From the NCBI RefSeq assembly GCF_001189955.1, contig NZ_LFLT01000002.1:62001-126000 (forward strand): DNA of 64,000 bases, written 5' to 3'. Position numbers and translations under genes: made by a program. Positions 55,523-64,000 of the stretch are shown here, in pieces. The notes under the pieces are model-generated. The model made no database searches. It was not told the DNA's origin and saw only the letters and a program-made list of their open reading frames with translations. Source of the DNA: Herbaspirillum chlorophenolicum (lineage in GTDB: Bacteria > Pseudomonadota > Gammaproteobacteria > Burkholderiales > Burkholderiaceae_D). Every line of letters starts with the position of its first letter. Within the stretch, counting starts at the first letter, position 1.

Positions 55523-57775
55523 ATGGTTTCAGTTGCAACCATACAGGGCGAAGGCCTGGCGGCGATCACCGCCGGTTTGGGGGCGGACGATGCTGCGCGC
55601 GTGGAAAAGGCGCTGGCCGAGGTCGAGCCCTTGTATGCAGACAGGCAGATCCTGTCAGGCCAAAACGCGCTGCAGTTCGTGTTCTCGGTCGCCTCGGTGC
55701 TGACCGCCCTGAACGCGGACGCGCAGACGCGCATTGCCGGACTGCTGTTTGAGGCGCAGATGCTGCATCCAGAACTGGATGAAAAGTGGGAAGATCGCTT
55801 CGGCAAGGAAATTACCGACCTGGTCGGCGGCGTGCGCCAACTGATGCGCTTCCACAGCCTGACTTTCCAGCCGCCGCAGCAGGAAGTCCTGCGCGGGAAG
55901 AATGCAGCACAGCAGGCGGCCGCCCAAGTCGAGACGCTGCGCAAGATGCTGCTGGCGATGGCTTCCGACATGCGTGCCGTGCTGGTGCGGCTGGCCTCCC
56001 GCGTGGCAACTTTGCGCTATTTTGCCGAGATCAAGCAGGAAAACGAAGTCAGCCGCCAATATGCGCGCGAAACCTTCGATCTTTATGCGCCATTGGCCAA
56101 CCGTCTTGGCATCTGGCAGCTCAAGTGGGAGCTGGAAGACTTGTCTTTCCGCTTTCTAGAACCGGCCACCTACAAGCGCATCGCCAAGATGCTGGAAGAG
56201 AAGCGGCTTGAGCGCGAACAGTTTGTGGCCAATGCGATTACCCGTTTGCGCTCGGAGCTCGCCTCGCTGGATATCAAGGCCGAAGTCAGCGGCAGGCCCA
56301 AGCACATCTACAGTATCTGGAACAAGATGCGCGGCAAAGCGATCGACTTTTCCGAGCTTTACGATGTGCGCGCATTCCGGGTGATCGTCGACGATGTCAA
56401 GACTTGCTATACGGTGCTGGGCATCGTGCACGATATCTGGACGCCGATTCCCGAGGAGTTCGACGACTATATTTCCCGCCCCAAGCAGAACGGCTACCAG
56501 TCTTTGCACACGGTTGTGGTAGCCGAAGACGGCCGGGCGCTGGAAGTGCAGATCCGTACGCATGAGATGCACCATTTCGCCGAATACGGCGTGGCGGCGC
56601 ATTGGCGTTACAAGGAAAGCGGCGGTTCAAATTTCGCCGCGCAAAAGTACGATGAAAAAATTGCGTGGCTGCGCCAGTTGCTGGCCTGGAAATCGGAGGT
56701 TACCGACGCCGTCGTGGATCAGGATGAAGTGCGCCGCGACTGGGTGGAGAAGCTCAAGGCGACCACCCTGGACGAGCGCATCTATGTGCTGACGCCGCAG
56801 GCGCGGGTGATCGAGTTGCCCAACGGCGCCACCCCGATTGATTTCGCTTACCACTTGCATAGCGATGTCGGCCATCGTTGCCGCGGCGCGCGGGTGGATG
56901 GCGTGATGGTGCCGCTGAATACGCCCTTGAAGAATGGGCAGACGGTGGAAATCATTACCGTCAAGAGCGGCCCGGGCGTCGGGCCGTCGCGCGATTGGCT
57001 GAGTTCAGGGTATGCGGCGAGCTCGCGCACCCGCTCCAAGGTGCGTGCCTGGTTCAATGCGATCGAGCAGCAAGAGACCTTGTCGGTGGGGCGTGGCCTG
57101 CTGGAAAAGACCTTGCAGCGAGAGGGCAAGACGGCGGTCAACTTGGAAGAGCTGGCCCAGAAGCTGGGCTTCGCCAAGGTGGATGACCTGTGCCTGTCGC
57201 TGGGCAAGGATGAGTTCAGTCTGCGCCACGTCGAGCAGGCGCTGCACGATGCCGAGGCCAAGAAGCCGGAGATCGACGACGAGGCCGCGATCACGCGCAA
57301 GAGTCGTGCATCGAGCATCGTGCAGGGCGCCAAGTCCGGCGTGCTGGTAGTCGGTACCGATGGCTTGCTGACCCAGCTGGCGCGCTGCTGCAAGCCGGCG
57401 CCGCCGGATCCGATCGCCGGTTTCGTCACGCGCGGCAAAGGCGTGTCGATCCATCGCGTGAGCTGCAAGAACTTCGCCGAGATGAGTTCCCATGCGCCTG
57501 AGCGTGTGATCCAGACGACCTGGGGGGCGCCGGCCAAGGATACGGTCTATCCGGTCGATATCTTTGTACTGGCCAATGACAGGCAGGGTTTGCTGCGCGA
57601 TATCTCCGATATCTTCTTGCGCGACAAAATCAATGTGATCGGTGTGAGCACGCAGAGCGCGCGAGGCCATGCACGCATGGCCTTTACCGCTGAAATCGCT
57701 TCGACCGAGCAGTTGCAGAAGGCCCTGACGGTGATTCGCGAGGTAAAGGGCGTCATTGAGGTGAAGCGGCAATAG
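55523..57775 (+). CDS. relA: GTP pyrophosphokinase RelA
   Basis: It makes (p)ppGpp on stalled ribosomes. The 750 residues have a degenerate N-terminal HD region (GLLFEAQMLHPELDEKW lacks the HD hydrolase motif), a synthetase domain with RPKHIYSIWNKM and EFDDYISRPKQNGYQSLHTVV with EFDD at 312-315 (the RelA rather than SpoT type of this motif), a TGS domain (RIYVLTPQARVIELPNGAT), and a C-terminal ACT domain. Missing HD residues and the EFDD motif argue for RelA over bifunctional SpoT. Confidence 0.94.
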   Translation: MVSVATIQGEGLAAITAGLGADDAARVEKALAEVEPLYADRQILSGQNALQFVFSVASVLTALNADAQTRIAGLLFEAQMLHPELDEKWEDRFGKEITDLVGGVRQLMRFHSLTFQPPQQEVLRGKNAAQQAAAQVETLRKMLLAMASDMRAVLVRLASRVATLRYFAEIKQENEVSRQYARETFDLYAPLANRLGIWQLKWELEDLSFRFLEPATYKRIAKMLEEKRLEREQFVANAITRLRSELASLDIKAEVSGRPKHIYSIWNKMRGKAIDFSELYDVRAFRVIVDDVKTCYTVLGIVHDIWTPIPEEFDDYISRPKQNGYQSLHTVVVAEDGRALEVQIRTHEMHHFAEYGVAAHWRYKESGGSNFAAQKYDEKIAWLRQLLAWKSEVTDAVVDQDEVRRDWVEKLKATTLDERIYVLTPQARVIELPNGATPIDFAYHLHSDVGHRCRGARVDGVMVPLNTPLKNGQTVEIITVKSGPGVGPSRDWLSSGYAASSRTRSKVRAWFNAIEQQETLSVGRGLLEKTLQREGKTAVNLEELAQKLGFAKVDDLCLSLGKDEFSLRHVEQALHDAEAKKPEIDDEAAITRKSRASSIVQGAKSGVLVVGTDGLLTQLARCCKPAPPDPIAGFVTRGKGVSIHRVSCKNFAEMSSHAPERVIQTTWGAPAKDTVYPVDIFVLANDRQGLLRDISDIFLRDKINVIGVSTQSARGHARMAFTAEIASTEQLQKALTVIREVKGVIEVKRQ

Positions 57776-57796
57776 ATGGTGCAGGGAAGTGACTGT

Positions 57797-57829
57797 GGAA
57801 CTGCCGGCGGCATGAGCGCCGGCAGTTCC
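57797..57829 (+). terminator. Strong hairpin after relA
   Basis: GGAACTGCCGGCG and CGCCGGCAGTTCC are perfect 13-bp arms around a 7-base loop. There is no T run, so termination is likely but not certain. Confidence 0.55.
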
Positions 57830-57894
57830 AGTGTTGTGATGCGGGAGGCATTGGCCGTATGAGAAAAATATTTCAGGTTTTTTCTTTTACCCCT

Positions 57895-57922
57895 TTGCAA
57901 AATTTAAAAAGCCCCCTATAAT
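57895..57922 (+). promoter_or_regulatory. Promoter of tRNA-Val
   Basis: TTGCAA (57895-57900) and the perfect TATAAT (57917-57922) are 16 bases apart, with the tRNA starting 14 bases later. Confidence 0.8.
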
Positions 57923-57936
57923 CTCGCTTCTTCGTT

Positions 57937-58013
57937 AGGCGCGTAGCTCAGCTGGTTAGAGCACTACCTTGACATGGTAGGGGTCGTTGGTTCGAGTCCA
58001 ATCGTGCCTACCA
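57937..58013 (+). tRNA. tRNA-Val(GAC)
   Basis: This is a 77-nt cloverleaf with acceptor AGGCGCG/CGTGCCT (one G-U pair) and encoded ACCA. The anticodon loop TTGACAT gives anticodon GAC. Confidence 0.96.
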
Positions 58014-58057
58014 ATTCTTCTGATGGTTCGGTTGAGTTGGGTAGCGAAGTCAAACTG

Positions 58058-58088
58058 AAATGGAAGCGCATTCGCAGCTTCCATTTTT
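58058..58088 (+). terminator. Terminator after tRNA-Val
   Basis: AAATGGAAGC and GCTTCCATTT form a perfect 10-bp stem with a 9-base loop, followed by further T residues. Confidence 0.8.
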
Positions 58089-58379
58089 GTTTTCTGCCCT
58101 TCGTTTTTTACTTTCCCTTGATTTTTAATTCAGTGCGTATTTTTTCGTTACGTTAGGCACGATGTCGGGCGTGGAAAAAATGTACGAACGGGCTTGGTAT
58201 TGGCCCGCACATGAAATTTATTTTCGTTTAGGGTGCTCGCAGTCAATGGTCGCGTAATTATTCGTGATTAAAATTTTGCTGTGTTGCGGAAACTTTTTTA
58301 AAATGTTTTAAACTGAGAGTCGAATTTTTTCTATTTCCCTCTCTCCAAGCTCTATCTTTATACAGGCGTTCGATTACCT
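58089..58379. promoter_or_regulatory. A/T-rich upstream region of cheY
   Basis: This is 290 bases with no gene and clearly higher A/T content than the surroundings. It contains the perfect palindrome TTTAAAA-TG-TTTTAAA (58297-58312) about 70 bases before cheY. No convincing sigma-28 flagellar promoter was found, and no clean sigma-70 pair. Confidence 0.4.
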
Positions 58380-58787
58380 ATGGCAGCAGATGACCAGTAT
58401 TTCCTCGTGGTTGATGACTTTTCGACAATGCGGCGTATCGTTAGCGGCTTGCTGAAGGAGTTGGAGTACAACAAGATTGTCGAGGCGGATGACGGCTCTT
58501 CGGCCATGAAGGTGCTGGAGGCGGGCGCCTTGCCGGTGACTTTTGTGCTTACCGACTGGAACATGCCGGTAATGGATGGCCTGACGTTGCTCAAGAAGAT
58601 TCGTTCGACGCCATCCCTGAGCCATTTGCCGGTGCTGATGATTACGGCGGAGGCCAAGAAGGAAAATATCGTCGAGGCTGCGCAGTCGGGGGCGGACGGT
58701 TATATCGTCAAGCCTTTTAATGCCGCGACCTTGAAAGAAAAGATCGAAAAGATCCTGGCGCGGCGCGCCAATCTGGAAAAGGCGTAA
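58380..58787 (+). CDS. cheY: Chemotaxis response regulator CheY
   Basis: The 135-residue single receiver domain has [12 protein letters not shown], phosphorylation site Asp59 in [11 protein letters not shown], Thr89 in LMITAEA, and Lys111 in [24 protein letters not shown] and ENI-type segments match CheY, which binds FliM of the flagellar switch, rather than generic receivers. It is monocistronic, with a terminator just after it, and away from any che or fli operon in the window. Confidence 0.92.
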
Positions 58788-58806
58788 GCGCTCTTCCGCG
58801 GAATAT

Positions 58807-58838
58807 AAAACGGCATCCTGGTGGATGCCGTTTTCATT
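58807..58838 (+). terminator. Intrinsic terminator after cheY
   Basis: AAAACGGCATCC, loop TGGT and GGATGCCGTTTT form a perfect 12-bp stem. Confidence 0.85.
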
Positions 58839-58873
58839 TGTGCGCTTGTCCGGTATGCGATGCGGGAAGGGCG

Positions 58874-59065
58874 TTAATCCTGCTTGAGCCCGAAATAGGG
58901 CAGGATGTCGCCGCGTGTCCATGATTTGATTTCATCGCCGTTCAGCAGTACCCGGTATTCCAGGTGGCGCACTCCATCGCCCAGTTCCACCGTGCGGCTC
59001 TGTAACGTGTATTCGACGTTATTGATGACGGTCAGGTGTTCGATGCAATTGTGTTCGTCTGGCAT
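58874..59065 (-). CDS. Small conserved-looking protein of unknown function
   Basis: The 63-residue protein (PDEHNCIEHLTVINNVEYTL, then SRTVELGDGVRHLEYRVLL, ending GDILPYFGLKQD) has beta-strand-like alternation, no signal peptide and no recognised domain. The ATG at 59065 has GGAGA eight bases upstream; an ATG at 59080 has no ribosome site. It is convergent with cheY, sharing the terminator region. I do not recognise the family. Confidence 0.6.
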   Translation of the reverse strand: MPDEHNCIEHLTVINNVEYTLQSRTVELGDGVRHLEYRVLLNGDEIKSWTRGDILPYFGLKQD

Positions 59066-59080
59066 GATGCGATTCTCCAT

Positions 59081-59420
59081 AATCTATCTAAATCCTAGCA
59101 TGGGAGTGGGGATAAATTGATGACCGTTGTGTGTTAAAAAACGCATTTGCAACTGTAAGCGGCGAAGATTCTTGCGTGATCGTCCTGTTGAGCTGGTTGT
59201 AATCGATAGTTGATATTTGTCGTTACTCTACGTACTTATGAGTGAAGTTGTTTTTATATCATTAATATTGCCTGGTGGTGAAAAGAAGATCCAGTAAAGC
59301 CGATAAATTAATTTGTTATAATTTCGGCTTGCGCACGCTTGATGTTGTTTTCAAAAGATGACAATGCGGCATTGCAATGGATTCACCACATTCTGTAAGA
59401 GCGAGAAAGGCAAACCGGTT
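59081..59420. promoter_or_regulatory. thrS upstream region with extended -10 promoter
   Basis: This is 340 bases with no gene other than the small leader that follows. It is unusually A/T-rich. TGTTATAAT (59314-59322) is an extended -10 element with no clear -35 box, which predicts a transcript start near 59329 and a leader of about 250 bases before thrS. Confidence 0.55.
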
Positions 59421-59462
59421 ATGACACCGCGAACTACCACCGAGTTTTTTGCGCGACGCTAG
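59421..59462 (+). CDS. Putative Thr-rich leader peptide of thrS
   Basis: The 13-codon frame reads [13 protein letters not shown], with four Thr codons (ACA, ACT, ACC, ACC), three of them consecutive, and stops at 59460-59462. AGAAAGG lies about ten bases upstream. It ends just before a terminator hairpin and 118 bases before thrS, threonyl-tRNA synthetase. That is the arrangement of an attenuation leader, where ribosomes stall for lack of charged tRNA-Thr. Translation is not proven. Confidence 0.6.
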
Positions 59463-59484
59463 TCGGGTTCTTTTTCGTTTTCTG

Positions 59485-59513
59485 AAAAAGCGCGGCTGGT
59501 CCGCGTTTTTTTT
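59485..59513 (+). terminator. Attenuator terminator upstream of thrS
   Basis: AAAAAGCGCGG, loop CTGGT and CCGCGTTTTTT form an 11-bp stem including a G-U pair, followed by a T run (eight in all after the GC core). A competing hairpin CTTTTTC/GAAAAAG (59470-59476 with 59484-59490) uses the left base of the stem. Confidence 0.8.
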
Positions 59514-59580
59514 CGTCCGTCATTTCGACATCAATACCCAAATCAGGCAAGGCAGCATGGCTGCCGACATGGAGTGCAAA

Positions 59581-61488
59581 ATGGTTTCAGTTCGTCTTCC
59601 CGATGGTTCACAACGCCAATTCGACGGTCCGGTAACAGTGGCGCAGGTCGCCGCCAATATCGGCGCCGGCTTGGCCAAGGCCGCGCTGGCCGGCCGTATC
59701 GACGGCAAGCTGGTCGACACCTCGTACCTGATCGACAAGGATTCCGACCTGGCTATCGTGACCGACAAGGATGCGGATGGCCTGGAGGTGATCCGCCATT
59801 CAACCGCCCACTTGCTGGCCTACGCGGTCAAGGAACTGTTTCCCGATGCGCAGGTGACCATCGGCCCGGTGATCGACAATGGTTTCTACTACGACTTTTC
59901 GTACAAGCGCCCCTTTACTCCGGACGACCTTGAGGCGATCGAAAAGAAGATGGCCGAACTGGCCAAGAAGGATGAGCCGGTGACCCGCAAGGTGTTGCCG
60001 CGCGACGAGGCGGTGGCTTACTTCAAGTCGATCGGCGAAGACTACAAGGCCGAAATCATTGCTTCGATTCCACAAAATGAGGATGTGTCGCTGTACACCG
60101 AGGGCGGCTTCACTGACTTGTGCCGCGGACCGCACGTGCCCTCTACCGGCAAGCTCAAGGTATTCAAGCTGATGAAGCTGGCTGGCGCCTACTGGCGCGG
60201 CGACTCCAACAACGAGATGCTGCAGCGTGTCTACGGCACTGCCTGGGCCAAGAAGGAAGACCAGGAGGCCTACCTGCACATGCTGGAAGAGGCTGAAAAG
60301 CGCGACCACCGCAAACTCGGCCGCGCGCTGGACCTGTTCCACTTCCAGGACGAAGCGCCTGGCCTGATCTTCTGGCATCCCAAGGGATGGTCGATCTGGC
60401 AGCAAGTCGAGCAATACATGCGCCGGGTCTACCAGGATAGCGGCTATCAAGAGGTGAAGGCGCCGCAGATCCTGGACCGTTCGCTGTGGGAAAAGACCGG
60501 CCACTGGGATAACTACCGCGAAAACATGTTTACGACCGAGTCGGAAAACCGCGCTTACGCGTTGAAGCCGATGAATTGCCCGGGCCATATCCAGATCTTC
60601 AACTCCGGCCTGCACAGCTACCGCGACCTGCCGCTGCGCTACGGCGAATTCGGGCAATGCCACCGCAACGAGCCTTCCGGTGCGTTGCACGGCATGATGC
60701 GCGTGCGCGGTTTTACCCAGGATGACGGCCACATCTTCTGTACCGAAGACCAGGTGCAGGAAGAGGTTGCGGCCTTCAACAAGGTGGTGCGCGAGGTTTA
60801 TGACAACTTCGGCTTCAAGGATGTGGCGGTCAAGCTGGCCCTGCGCCCGGAAAAGCGCATCGGCGCGGAAGAGGTCTGGGACAAGGCTGAGAACGCGCTG
60901 CGCGAAGCCATCCGTGCATCCGGCTCGGAATGGGAAGAGCTGCCGGGCGAGGGGGCTTTCTACGGCCCCAAGATCGAATACCACTTGAAGGATTCGATCG
61001 GCCGTTCCTGGCAGTGCGGCACCATGCAGGTCGATTTCTCGATGCCGGCGCGCCTGGGCGCGGAATATGTCACGGAAGACAACGGCCGCAAGGTGCCGGT
61101 CATGCTGCACCGGGCGATCGTCGGTTCGCTGGAGCGTTTCATCGCGATCCTGATTGAAAACCACGCCGGCGCCATGCCGCTGTGGCTTGCTCCTGTGCAA
61201 GTTGTCATCCTGAATATTTCCGACGCGCAAGCCGATTACGTGAAGAACGTTGCACAAACGCTGAAAAAACAAGGGTTTAGGGTTGAGACCGATTTGCGTA
61301 ACGAAAAGATTACCTATAAAATACGGCAGCATTCTATTCAGAAGCCGCCCTATATCTTGGTTGTCGGCGATAAAGAACGGGATGCAAACACAGTGGCCGT
61401 GCGTGCGCGGGGCAATGTCGATCTGGGCGTAATGTCCATCGACACCTTGGTGGAGCGCCTCAAGACTGAGGTGGAAGCCAAAGCCTGA
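59581..61488 (+). CDS. thrS: Threonyl-tRNA synthetase
   Basis: The ATG at 59581 gives 635 residues beginning [19 protein letters not shown], aligned with E. coli ThrRS (642). Domains in order: TGS (1-60), editing domain with [11 protein letters not shown] and [10 protein letters not shown], class II catalytic core with motif 2 [15 protein letters not shown], zinc ligand Cys in [10 protein letters not shown], and motif 3 [11 protein letters not shown], then the anticodon-binding domain ([18 protein letters not shown]). In-frame starts back to 59449 lie inside the leader and terminator and are rejected. It is the first gene of the thrS-infC-rpmI-rplT-pheS row. Confidence 0.97.
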
Positions 61489-61569
61489 TCAGTCGATCGG
61501 AGGAAGCGAATGCTTCCTTCTCAGCGCAAGAGCACGGCTTAATTTATTGGTTTTTAAAAGGAAACTGCA

Positions 61570-62091
61570 ATAGCTACTGACAAGTCGCATCGCCTGAATC
61601 GCGAAATCACTGCGCCGGAAGTGCGCTTATCGGGTGTCAATAACGAGCCGCTGGGCATCGTCAGTCTGGCCGAAGCCATTCGGCTGTCTGAAGAGGCGGA
61701 AGTGGACCTGGTTGAGATTGCGCCAACTGCACAGCCCCCGGTTTGCCGCCTGATGGATTATGGCAAGTTCAAGTACCAGGAGCAGAAGAAGGCCCACGAA
61801 GCCAAGCTCAAGCAGAAGGTCATCCAGGTCAAGGAAGTCAAGTTCCGCCCGGGTACCGATGATGGCGATTACAACATCAAGCTGCGCAACTTGACCAAGT
61901 TCCTGGATGAAGGCGATAAAACCAAGATCACGCTGCGTTTCCGCGGTCGTGAGATGGCGCACCAGGAAATCGGTATGCGTATGCTGGAGCGCTTGAAGGC
62001 AGACCTGGAGCCCTACGGCCAGGTCGAGCAGTTTCCCAAGATGGAAGGCCGCCAGATGATCATGGTGCTGGCGCCCAAGAAAAAGAAGTAA
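61570..62091 (+). CDS. infC: Translation initiation factor IF-3, AUA start codon
   Basis: It binds the 30S subunit and checks the start codon. The conserved N-terminus [19 protein letters not shown] is encoded upstream of the first ATG/GTG candidate. It begins at ATA (61570) with AAGGAAA at the proper distance, giving 173 residues. The rest includes [22 protein letters not shown] and [19 protein letters not shown], both IF-3 signatures. AUU is the start codon in E. coli infC and allows autoregulation. AUA would serve the same purpose. A later start at 61621 would delete the conserved N-terminal helix. Confidence 0.93.
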
Positions 62092-62206
62092 GTCGAAGTT
62101 TGCCGTATCCGGATGGCGTCTCCCGATGCCGTCTGCGCTGTGAAAGCAGTGAAGTGTAGGGCCGACAAAGGATTTGCCGGCCGCAGTCAAATGCGGTGGG
62201 CAAAAG

Positions 62207-62319
62207 CAGCGGAGGGTGAAATACCCGCCGCTGTCAAATAAGTGAGAGCAGGCATCAAAGAGCAGCGAGCATTGCTGCCACCTGCAATCATCAAAAAATG
62301 GAGCTGTCCGGAAGGACAG
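62207..62319 (+). promoter_or_regulatory. Structured leader of rpmI-rplT, possible L20 operator
   Basis: The 235-base gap between infC and rpmI contains the hairpin AGCGG-AGGGT/ACCC-CCGCT (about 62207-62232). Directly before rpmI there is CTGTCC, loop GGAA, GGACAG (62304-62319). The second hairpin includes the AAGGA ribosome site of rpmI. In E. coli and Bacillus L20 represses this operon by binding its leader RNA. The same is inferred here. Confidence 0.45.
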
Positions 62320-62326
62320 AGTTGCT

Positions 62327-62524
62327 ATGCCTAAGATGAAAACGAAGAGCAGCGCGAAGAAGCGTTTTCGCGTGCGCCCAGGCGGCACCGTCAAGCGCGG
62401 TCAAGCCTTCAAGCGTCACATTCTGACCAAGAAGACCACCAAGAACAAACGCCAATTGCGCGGTGCAGTGGGAGTCCATGAGACTAACCTGACATCGGTT
62501 CGCGCAATGCTGCCGTTCGCTTAA
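62327..62524 (+). CDS. rpmI: 50S ribosomal protein L35
   Basis: The 65-residue basic protein begins [19 protein letters not shown] and contains [20 protein letters not shown], the L35 signature. It lies between infC and rplT in the universal order. The ribosome site AAGGA lies in a small hairpin just upstream. Confidence 0.97.
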
Positions 62525-62549
62525 CCTCACACTCAATTAAGGAGCTACT

Positions 62550-62912
62550 ATGCCTAGAGTCAAACGTGGGGTAACAGCGCGTGCCCGTCACAAGAAAGTC
62601 CTCGCCCTCGCCAAGGGTTACCGCGGTCGCCGCAAAAACGTCTACCGTATCGCCAAGCAAGCAGTCATGCGCGCTGGTCAATACGCGTACCGTGACCGCC
62701 GTAACAAGAAGCGCGTGTTCCGTGCCCTGTGGATCGCCCGTATCAACGCCGCTGCCCGTCAGCATGGCGTGACCTACAGCGTGTTCATGAACGGCCTGAA
62801 GCGCGCTTCGATCGAGCTGGACCGCAAGGTTCTGGCCGACATGGCTGTCACCGACAAGGCTGCTTTTGCTGCCATCGTCAACCAGGTGAAGGCCAACATC
62901 GCTGCCGCCTGA
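62550..62912 (+). CDS. rplT: 50S ribosomal protein L20
   Basis: The 120 residues begin [20 protein letters not shown] and contain [20 protein letters not shown] and [14 protein letters not shown], all L20 signatures. It binds 23S rRNA early in assembly and in several bacteria represses its own operon. TTAAGGAGCT precedes the ATG. Confidence 0.98.
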
Positions 62913-63032
62913 TCGTCAGCGTGTTGATGCGGTTGCCGACCGCTGAATGGTTCAACGCCTAAAGTAGTACAGCAGTCGGCGCTGCAAAATCCTGCGGGGC
63001 AAAGGTGTAATACCGATGCCCCGTATGTTTTT

Positions 63033-63062
63033 GATCCACCGATTTGTGGATCTTCTTCTTTT
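63033..63062 (+). terminator. Intrinsic terminator/attenuator before pheS
   Basis: GATCCAC, loop CGATTT and GTGGATC form a perfect 7-bp stem followed by TTCTTCTTTT. A second hairpin, CGGGGCA/TGCCCCG (62996-63023), lies directly upstream. In E. coli pheST is attenuated at this place. Confidence 0.7.
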
Positions 63063-63104
63063 CGACTTCGTCGTCGGATTTTCGATTGGAGCGAGACTTA
63101 CCGC

Positions 63105-64000
63105 ATGAATCCCCTAGACCAACTCGTGGCGCAGGCGCAGAGCGATTTCACCGCCGCGACCGATGCTGCCGCACTGGAAAACGCCAAGGCAAAATATCTG
63201 GGCAAGACCGGCCAGATCACCGAGCAGATGAAGGGGCTGGGCAAGCTGGCCCCTGAAGAGCGCAAGGCGCAGGGGGCGATCATCAACGTCGCCAAGGAAC
63301 AGATCGAAAACGCGCTGACCGCACGCCGTGACGAACTGTCGAATGCGCAGATGCAGGCGCGCCTGAATGCGGAAGCGATCGATGTCACGCTGCCCGGCCG
63401 CGGCCGCGGCGTTGGCGGCATCCACCCGGTGATGCGCTCGTGGCAGCGCGTCGAGGAAATCTTCCGTTCGATCGGCTTCGACGTGGCCGACGGCCCCGAG
63501 ATCGAAACCGACTGGACCAATTTCACCGCATTGAACAGCCCGGAAAACCACCCGGCCCGTTCGATGCAGGACACCTTCTACATCGAAGGCAACGATACGC
63601 AGGGCAAGCCCTTGCTGCTGCGTACCCACACCAGCCCGATGCAGGTGCGTTACGCGCGCATGAACAAGCCGCCGATCAAGGTGATCGCGCCCGGCCGTAC
63701 CTACCGCGTCGACAGCGATGCTACCCACTCGCCAATGTTCCACCAGGTCGAAGGCCTGTGGATCGCCGAGGACATCAGCTTCGCCGACTTGAAGGGCGTC
63801 TACCTCAATTTCGTCAAGGCCTTCTTCGAGACCGACGACCTGCAGGTGCGTTTCCGCCCATCCTATTTCCCGTTCACCGAACCCTCGGCCGAAATCGACA
63901 TCGCCTTCGGCAGCGGCCCGCTGAAGGGGCGCTGGCTGGAAGTCTCCGGCGCCGGCCAGGTGCATCCGACCGTGGTGCGCAACATGGGGCTGGATCCCGA
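63105..64000 (+). CDS. pheS: Phenylalanyl-tRNA synthetase alpha subunit (3' end cut by window)
   Basis: About 298 residues are visible from the ATG at 63105. The coiled-coil N-terminus ([37 protein letters not shown]) leads to the class II catalytic core with [26 protein letters not shown]-type segment [20 protein letters not shown], motif 2 [19 protein letters not shown] and [17 protein letters not shown]. The frame continues past the window end. An adjacent pheT is expected downstream. Confidence 0.96.

Follow-up and report, generated by a model that had tools for sequence, protein, structure and literature searches.

A predicted threonine leader-peptide attenuator upstream of thrS in Herbaspirillum chlorophenolicum and other Burkholderiales

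Leader-peptide attenuation of an aminoacyl-tRNA synthetase operon has long been known from pheM-pheST of Escherichia coli. Like the thrS leader described here, that system combines a leader peptide rich in the cognate amino acid with a terminator and controls a synthetase operon; it differs in its amino acid (Phe), its target (pheST) and its gammaproteobacterial host. A preliminary description of the DNA analyzed in this work had called leader-peptide control of thrS possibly undescribed, which is too strong in the light of pheM-pheST and of the proposal for Streptomyces lividans considered below. In thrL of the E. coli thrABC operon (RF00506) the Thr codons of a leader peptide also control a terminator, but the genes regulated are biosynthetic and the response extends to Ile. 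The T-box of Gram-positive thrS genes resembles the thrS leader in raising the synthetase gene when the tRNA is uncharged, and differs in binding the tRNA directly, without a leader peptide. A threonine leader peptide, thrL, has been predicted directly upstream of thrS in S. lividans (PMC8079986); it differs from the present leader in its sequence, MKRVRPFLETTPGFVPAR, with two Thr, in its leaderless transcript and actinobacterial host, and in having one hairpin without a U-rich stretch and so no clear terminator. The leuA attenuator of Shewanella (PMC2659441) shares with the thrS leader a terminator, an antiterminator and an anti-antiterminator stem built from leader sequence. It serves leucine, however, and its anti-antiterminator is part of the leader-coding sequence, whereas that of the thrS leader is mainly the ribosome-binding site (RBS) and start codon. 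In searches of an open-access library we found no report of a betaproteobacterial thrS leader peptide.

The window is the whole stretch of 64,000 nucleotides of H. chlorophenolicum (contig NZ_LFLT01000002.1) analyzed in this work. A gene at 59581..61488 on the plus strand (ATG at 59581, 635 amino acids) is taken, from sequence likeness, to be thrS, encoding threonyl-tRNA synthetase. Of the 116 genomes in the family set, 112 contain a match to its product with an E no higher than 8.3e-129; the remaining four (G007, G009, G051 and G105) gave only a weak best match, probably to another synthetase. An Rfam covariance-model scan of 57000-64000 gave 8 matches up to E=5, among which neither Thr_leader (RF00506) nor the T-box occurs, and by these models the thrS leader is neither of the two. 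A sub-threshold hit to HPnc0260 (57975-58112, minus strand), antisense to a tRNA-Val gene, looks spurious.

Several elements precede thrS on the plus strand. The extended -10 promoter element TGTTATAAT (59314-59322) is conserved in the genus, since TTTGYTATAAT occurs 93-114 nt upstream of the leader ATG in 9/9 loci (four named Herbaspirillum, five assigned by genus label) with differing flanks; transcription would start downstream of it at about 59328-59330. The leader ribosome-binding region, AGCGAGAAAGGCAAACCGGTTA (59400..59421, segment 0), precedes an open reading frame of 13 codons and TAG (59421-59462), which reads ATG ACA CCG CGA ACT ACC ACC GAG TTT TTT GCG CGA CGC TAG and has its four Thr codons at 59424-59426 and 59433-59441. 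The codons of the representative loci mark CGAACT (59430..59435) as its near-invariant Arg-Thr core. Segment 2, GCTAGTCGGGTTCTTTTTCG (59458..59477), overlaps the leader stop codon and is predicted to pair either with segment 3, forming the antiterminator, or with segment 0, which would then act as the anti-antiterminator. Segment 3, GAAAAAGCGCGGCTGGT (59484..59500), is the 5' arm and loop of an intrinsic terminator (59485..59513) placed between the leader frame and the structural gene. This terminator consists of the 5' arm AAAAAGCGCGG (59485-59495), the loop CTGGT and the 3' arm CCGCGTTTTTTTT (59501-59513), with an 11-bp stem, a 5-nt loop, a run of 8 T and a folding energy of -14.3 kcal/mol. 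A simple terminator scan reported the hairpin on the minus strand only, presumably because, on the plus strand, the T run is taken up into an extension of the stem. Together with the short complementary pair CTTTTTC (59470-59476) and GAAAAAG (59484-59490), the promoter element, the frame with its four Thr codons and the terminator before thrS had been set out in the preliminary description, and all were confirmed from the sequence. The 22-base core of the leader occurs once in its own genome, where a search allowing up to 3 mismatches gave no second copy.

For comparison 300 regions upstream of thrS have been gathered. One locus (L063) was left out as its upstream sequence is too short, and the remaining 299 were reduced to 152 representatives sharing less than 75% identity over 250 nt: 53 from the near set (loci L001-L174, i.e. 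the best 80 named contigs and the loci of family f1), 63 from other families of the order (L175-L260) and 36 from the rest of the class (L261-L300). By contig titles the near set includes Burkholderia, Pandoraea, Derxia and Rubrivivax and hence more than one family, and the sampled order is Burkholderiales, which we take to stand for Betaproteobacteria here. Loci L185 and L197 belong to f1 but were numbered into the order set; neither is a representative, so the counts are unchanged. The pairing tests used the 58 of the 116 near and order representatives (38 near, 20 order) in which both leader and terminator were called; in ten further loci (L050, L076, L080, L106, L160, L168, L177, L181, L183 and L256) a leader is seen by eye but the calling criteria fail. 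Codons were counted in 102 distinct near leaders, collected with a pattern that constrains codons 2-5 and leaves codons 6-8 free, 13 loci without a terminator call having been passed over. The alignments A1 and A2 contain 74 of these 102 sequences, the other 28, many of them diverged, being omitted by choice.

The leader is conserved well beyond the genus. A short frame with in-frame CGAAC[TG] has been found in 40/53 near representatives (1.9 expected), 19/63 of the order set (2.2 expected) and 0/36 of the class set (1.1 expected), as compared with 4/53, 3/63 and 0/36 on the antisense strand. With duplicates counted, it is present in 156/176 f1-or-near loci. Among the 44 other sampled families, 19 contain at least one case; the leader was not found by the CGAAC[TG] criterion in 25, some of which (e.g. 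f19 and f22) do have Thr-rich leaders. A criterion independent of the core, at least three Thr within five codons of a short frame, gave 28/53, 14/63 and 1/36 for the near, order and class sets, against 1.0, 1.2 and 1.0 expected from dinucleotide shuffles. The antisense counts of 7, 13 and 5 leave the sense strand of the order set no better than its antisense strand (14 vs 13) as long as tRNA genes are unmasked; after masking them, sense counts were 28, 14 and 0 and antisense counts 3, 1 and 0. No comparable excess of short frames rich in any other amino acid was found in the near set. Val-rich short frames are numerous in near, order and class sets alike, which is ascribed to the tRNA-Val gene. 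Leader peptides of other families include MFRTSTTTQS, MSFRTTTTGTLNLG, MFKRTTTTRISR and MPRTHTTTGHFSRRG. Locus L254 (family f34 of the order) has before thrS a different Thr-rich frame, MTTETDTFTGMSLRAHRLVVWQAP, without the Arg-Thr core. A leader frame with codons for the cognate amino acid is thus conserved, its translation being a prediction from that conservation.

Within the frame, Thr appears to be kept as an amino acid. Codon 6 specifies Thr in 77 of the 102 distinct near leaders, distributed over ACC (27), ACG (21), ACA (15) and ACT (14), and codon 7 in 78; the 74 aligned rows agree, with 63 and 62 respectively. Synonyms that vary while Thr stays are a mark of selection on decoding, and the conservation of Thr codons in relatives, a check named beforehand, has been borne out in this way. 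Codons 2-5 (ACA CCG CGA ACT) are almost frozen at the nucleotide level, a result that the pattern used to pick the rows favors. Among the 58 representatives the core reads CGA in 56 and ACT or ACG in 57, although the selection criteria favored CG/CT and AC at these places. The near-invariance of Thr-Pro-Arg in near leaders, and of an Arg before the core Thr (57/58, CGA in 56), would also fit a nascent chain that arrests the ribosome through an M-T-P-R-T or R-T-x-T motif and responds to a signal other than Thr-tRNA. Because core nucleotides were among the criteria by which the leaders were chosen, the Arg and CGA figures are inflated; the invariance lies at the nucleotide level, while elsewhere the peptide differs between loci in its sequence, its length and how many Thr it has, and this suits codon-dependent stalling better, so that an arrest peptide seems to us the least probable of the readings considered. 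In the near set no pairing partner was found for the CGA Arg codon (59430-59435 and relatives), and the frozen CCG CGA is there not accounted for by RNA pairing; codon speed or the peptide itself may therefore matter at this place.

The pairings predicted for the leader RNA go beyond CTTTTTC/GAAAAAG. In addition GCTAGTCG (59458-59465) pairs with CGGCTGGT (59493-59500), so that the antiterminator takes the entire 5' arm and the loop of the terminator; the earlier caveat that the competing stem covers only the A/U base of the terminator was therefore wrong. In the whole-leader minimum-energy fold of the window the RBS region is paired with segment 2: GGTTA (59417-59421) pairs with TAGTC (59460-59464), and AGCGAGAAAGG with the CTTTTTCGT region. 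This second pairing bears on a further reading, in which threonyl-tRNA synthetase would bind the leader and autoregulate its gene as at the translational thrS operator of E. coli, where it recognizes tRNA-like domains beside the thrS RBS, the small frame being incidental. In favor of this reading, the sequence at the leader start (GGTTATGACACCGCGAAC) hardly varies among the 74 aligned near leaders, a constancy beyond coding need. The conserved block is, however, the RBS and start of a small frame about 160 nt upstream of thrS rather than the RBS of thrS itself; pairing with segment 2 accounts for the RBS and GGTTA within the block and so explains the frozen leader start in part, and the free exchange of Thr synonyms at codon 6 points to decoding. 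We consider binding by the synthetase very improbable.

Both pairings with segment 2 are stronger than chance would give. The antiterminator duplex of the window (segments 2 and 3) has an energy of -19.0 kcal/mol and a z of -2.2 relative to shuffled segment 2, the mean z being -1.89 in the near set (n=38) and -0.96 in the order set (n=20). For the RBS and segment 2 the mean z is -1.47 (near) and -0.79 (order), and for the window alone only -0.6. Since such scores ignore covariation, an own-versus-foreign test was made, in which each locus's own partner was compared with the partners from other loci after removal of row and column effects. The own partner proved better by 2.03 kcal (p=0.0002, n=58) for segments 2 and 3, and by 3.27 kcal (p=0.0002, n=58) for the RBS and segment 2. 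No comparable own-partner effect was found, again with n=58, in nine control pairings, between the RBS and the terminator arm or between the RBS and the leader codons; the strongest control, reversed segment 2 with the arm, gave -0.57 kcal (p=0.016). Two other candidates were rejected. The classical 1:2 pairing, here between segment 2 and the Thr codons, is weak (-0.73 kcal; p=0.022 overall, 0.17 near, 0.009 order), and that of the leader codons with the terminator arm has an even smaller effect (-0.31 kcal; p=0.043 overall, 0.0016 near, 0.82 order). Examined column by column in A2, 96.8% of cells are paired for segments 2 and 3, 98.0% for the terminator stem and 91.0% for the RBS and segment 2; column covariation in A2 showed no excess over shuffles for either pairing with segment 2, as the sequences are too alike. 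An antiterminator that uses the 5' arm of the terminator, and excludes it, is thus present by predicted pairing and by the own-versus-foreign test.

The position of segment 2 suits control by a ribosome. Relative to the stop codon its start lies at a median of -3 nt in the near set and +0.5 nt in the order set; counted from the first base of the core Thr codon, it lies 26 nt (near) or 29 nt (order) downstream. Because the search for segment 2 started 15 nt after that base, the search itself partly ensures that segment 2 lies past a stalled ribosome, but not that it falls at the stop codon. With the footprint sizes usual for ribosomes, which are general knowledge, segment 2 would be free during a stall at the Thr codons and masked by a ribosome standing at the stop. 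The two ribosome states proposed earlier are in this respect geometrically sound, as segment 2 overlaps the stop codon and the antiterminator is backed by the covariation test. Equilibrium folding of the window gave a terminator probability of 0.00 with a stalled ribosome, 1.00 with the ribosome at the stop and 1.00 without a ribosome. The full three-state switch was obtained in 13/58 representatives (12/38 near, 1/20 order), so that kinetics must be invoked elsewhere. The mean probability of the terminator in the stalled state was 0.70 in the near set vs 0.92 with shuffled segment 2, and 0.91 vs 0.98 in the order set. Co-transcriptional occupancy of the arm before the 3' arm emerges hardly differed from shuffles (near 0.74 vs 0.67, order 0.79 vs 0.66, window 0.84 vs 0.82). 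The model accordingly rests more on conservation and covariation than on folding energies.

Most likely, the thrS leader operates by classical ribosome-mediated attenuation and turns thrS up when charged threonine tRNA runs short. We put the probability that it is a transcription attenuator of this kind, with thrS responding to charged tRNA-Thr, at roughly 85%. The leader peptide would be translated while the RNA is being transcribed. With sufficient Thr-tRNA the ribosome would reach the stop codon and cover segment 2, the terminator would form and transcription would end near 59513. When Thr-tRNA is scarce, the ribosome would stall at one of the Thr codons (2, 5, 6 or 7); these lie so near the beginning of the frame that a ribosome halted there would still be on or next to the leader's own RBS. 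Such a ribosome would block the pairing of the RBS with segment 2 and leave segment 2 free for the 5' arm and loop of the terminator; once the antiterminator had formed, RNA polymerase would read through into thrS. Were the leader not translated, the RBS would pair with segment 2 and termination would again be the default. Comparative support for this model comes from the conservation of the leader, codon selection specific to Thr, the competition between two pairings and the location of segment 2 on the stop codon; what we infer are stalling, termination, read-through, the footprint sizes and the block of RBS pairing by a stalled ribosome. Judged from sequence, the leader has the structural features of leader-peptide attenuation, and its response to tRNA charging is a prediction. 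The threonine attenuation outlined in the preliminary description thus holds in outline and has gained comparative support; its antiterminator was drawn too small, and it did not include the third state, that of the RBS paired with segment 2. If the model is right, the leader would be unusual in that its own start region provides most of the anti-antiterminator.

The surroundings of thrS offer a simpler explanation, in which the hairpin is the plain terminator of an upstream tRNA-Val gene, the short frame is non-regulatory and thrS is expressed by constitutive read-through. A tRNA-Val gene often lies within 500 nt upstream of thrS (32/53 near, 45/63 order and 22/36 class representatives), and in leaderless loci such as L199, L216, L233 and L259 the same kind of stem directly follows the tRNA. 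In the window, however, tRNA-Val (57937-58013) lies 1.4 kb upstream, with another frame (58380-58787, presumably a CheY-type response regulator) between it and thrS, yet leader and terminator are kept. Thr-specific codon conservation and covarying pairings would also be unexpected for a plain terminator, and we regard this explanation as highly unlikely. In locus L016 some eight or nine TTTTTGTTTGTCC-like repeats stand between the terminator and thrS. In loci such as L005, L199 and L233 tRNA-Val stands shortly before thrS, and in some leaderless ones a terminator of the GTGCGGC type follows it directly; this suggests a tRNA terminator as the origin of the attenuator, and with it a possible route from the terminator of a tRNA gene to a regulated attenuator. 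The attenuation model may be extended to a self-closing attenuator: a hub segment at the stop codon would pick either the leader start region (RBS and start codon) or the 5' arm of the terminator, a stall within the first seven codons would act by sitting on the start region, and many betaproteobacterial families would use the device to control thrS. It would have been built on the terminator which, in relatives lacking the leader, just comes after a tRNA-Val gene. We would give this extended form about even odds.

Downstream of thrS the open reading frames read as infC, rplT and pheS, names which we assign from sequence likeness, and the switch may therefore also touch the supply of initiation factor 3. 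The frame read as infC seems, from its sequence, to start with the non-AUG codon ATA (61570-61572; ATAGCTACTGACAAG). For the bacteria concerned, the thrS leader would represent a specific and testable control of threonyl-tRNA synthetase in a large bacterial group.
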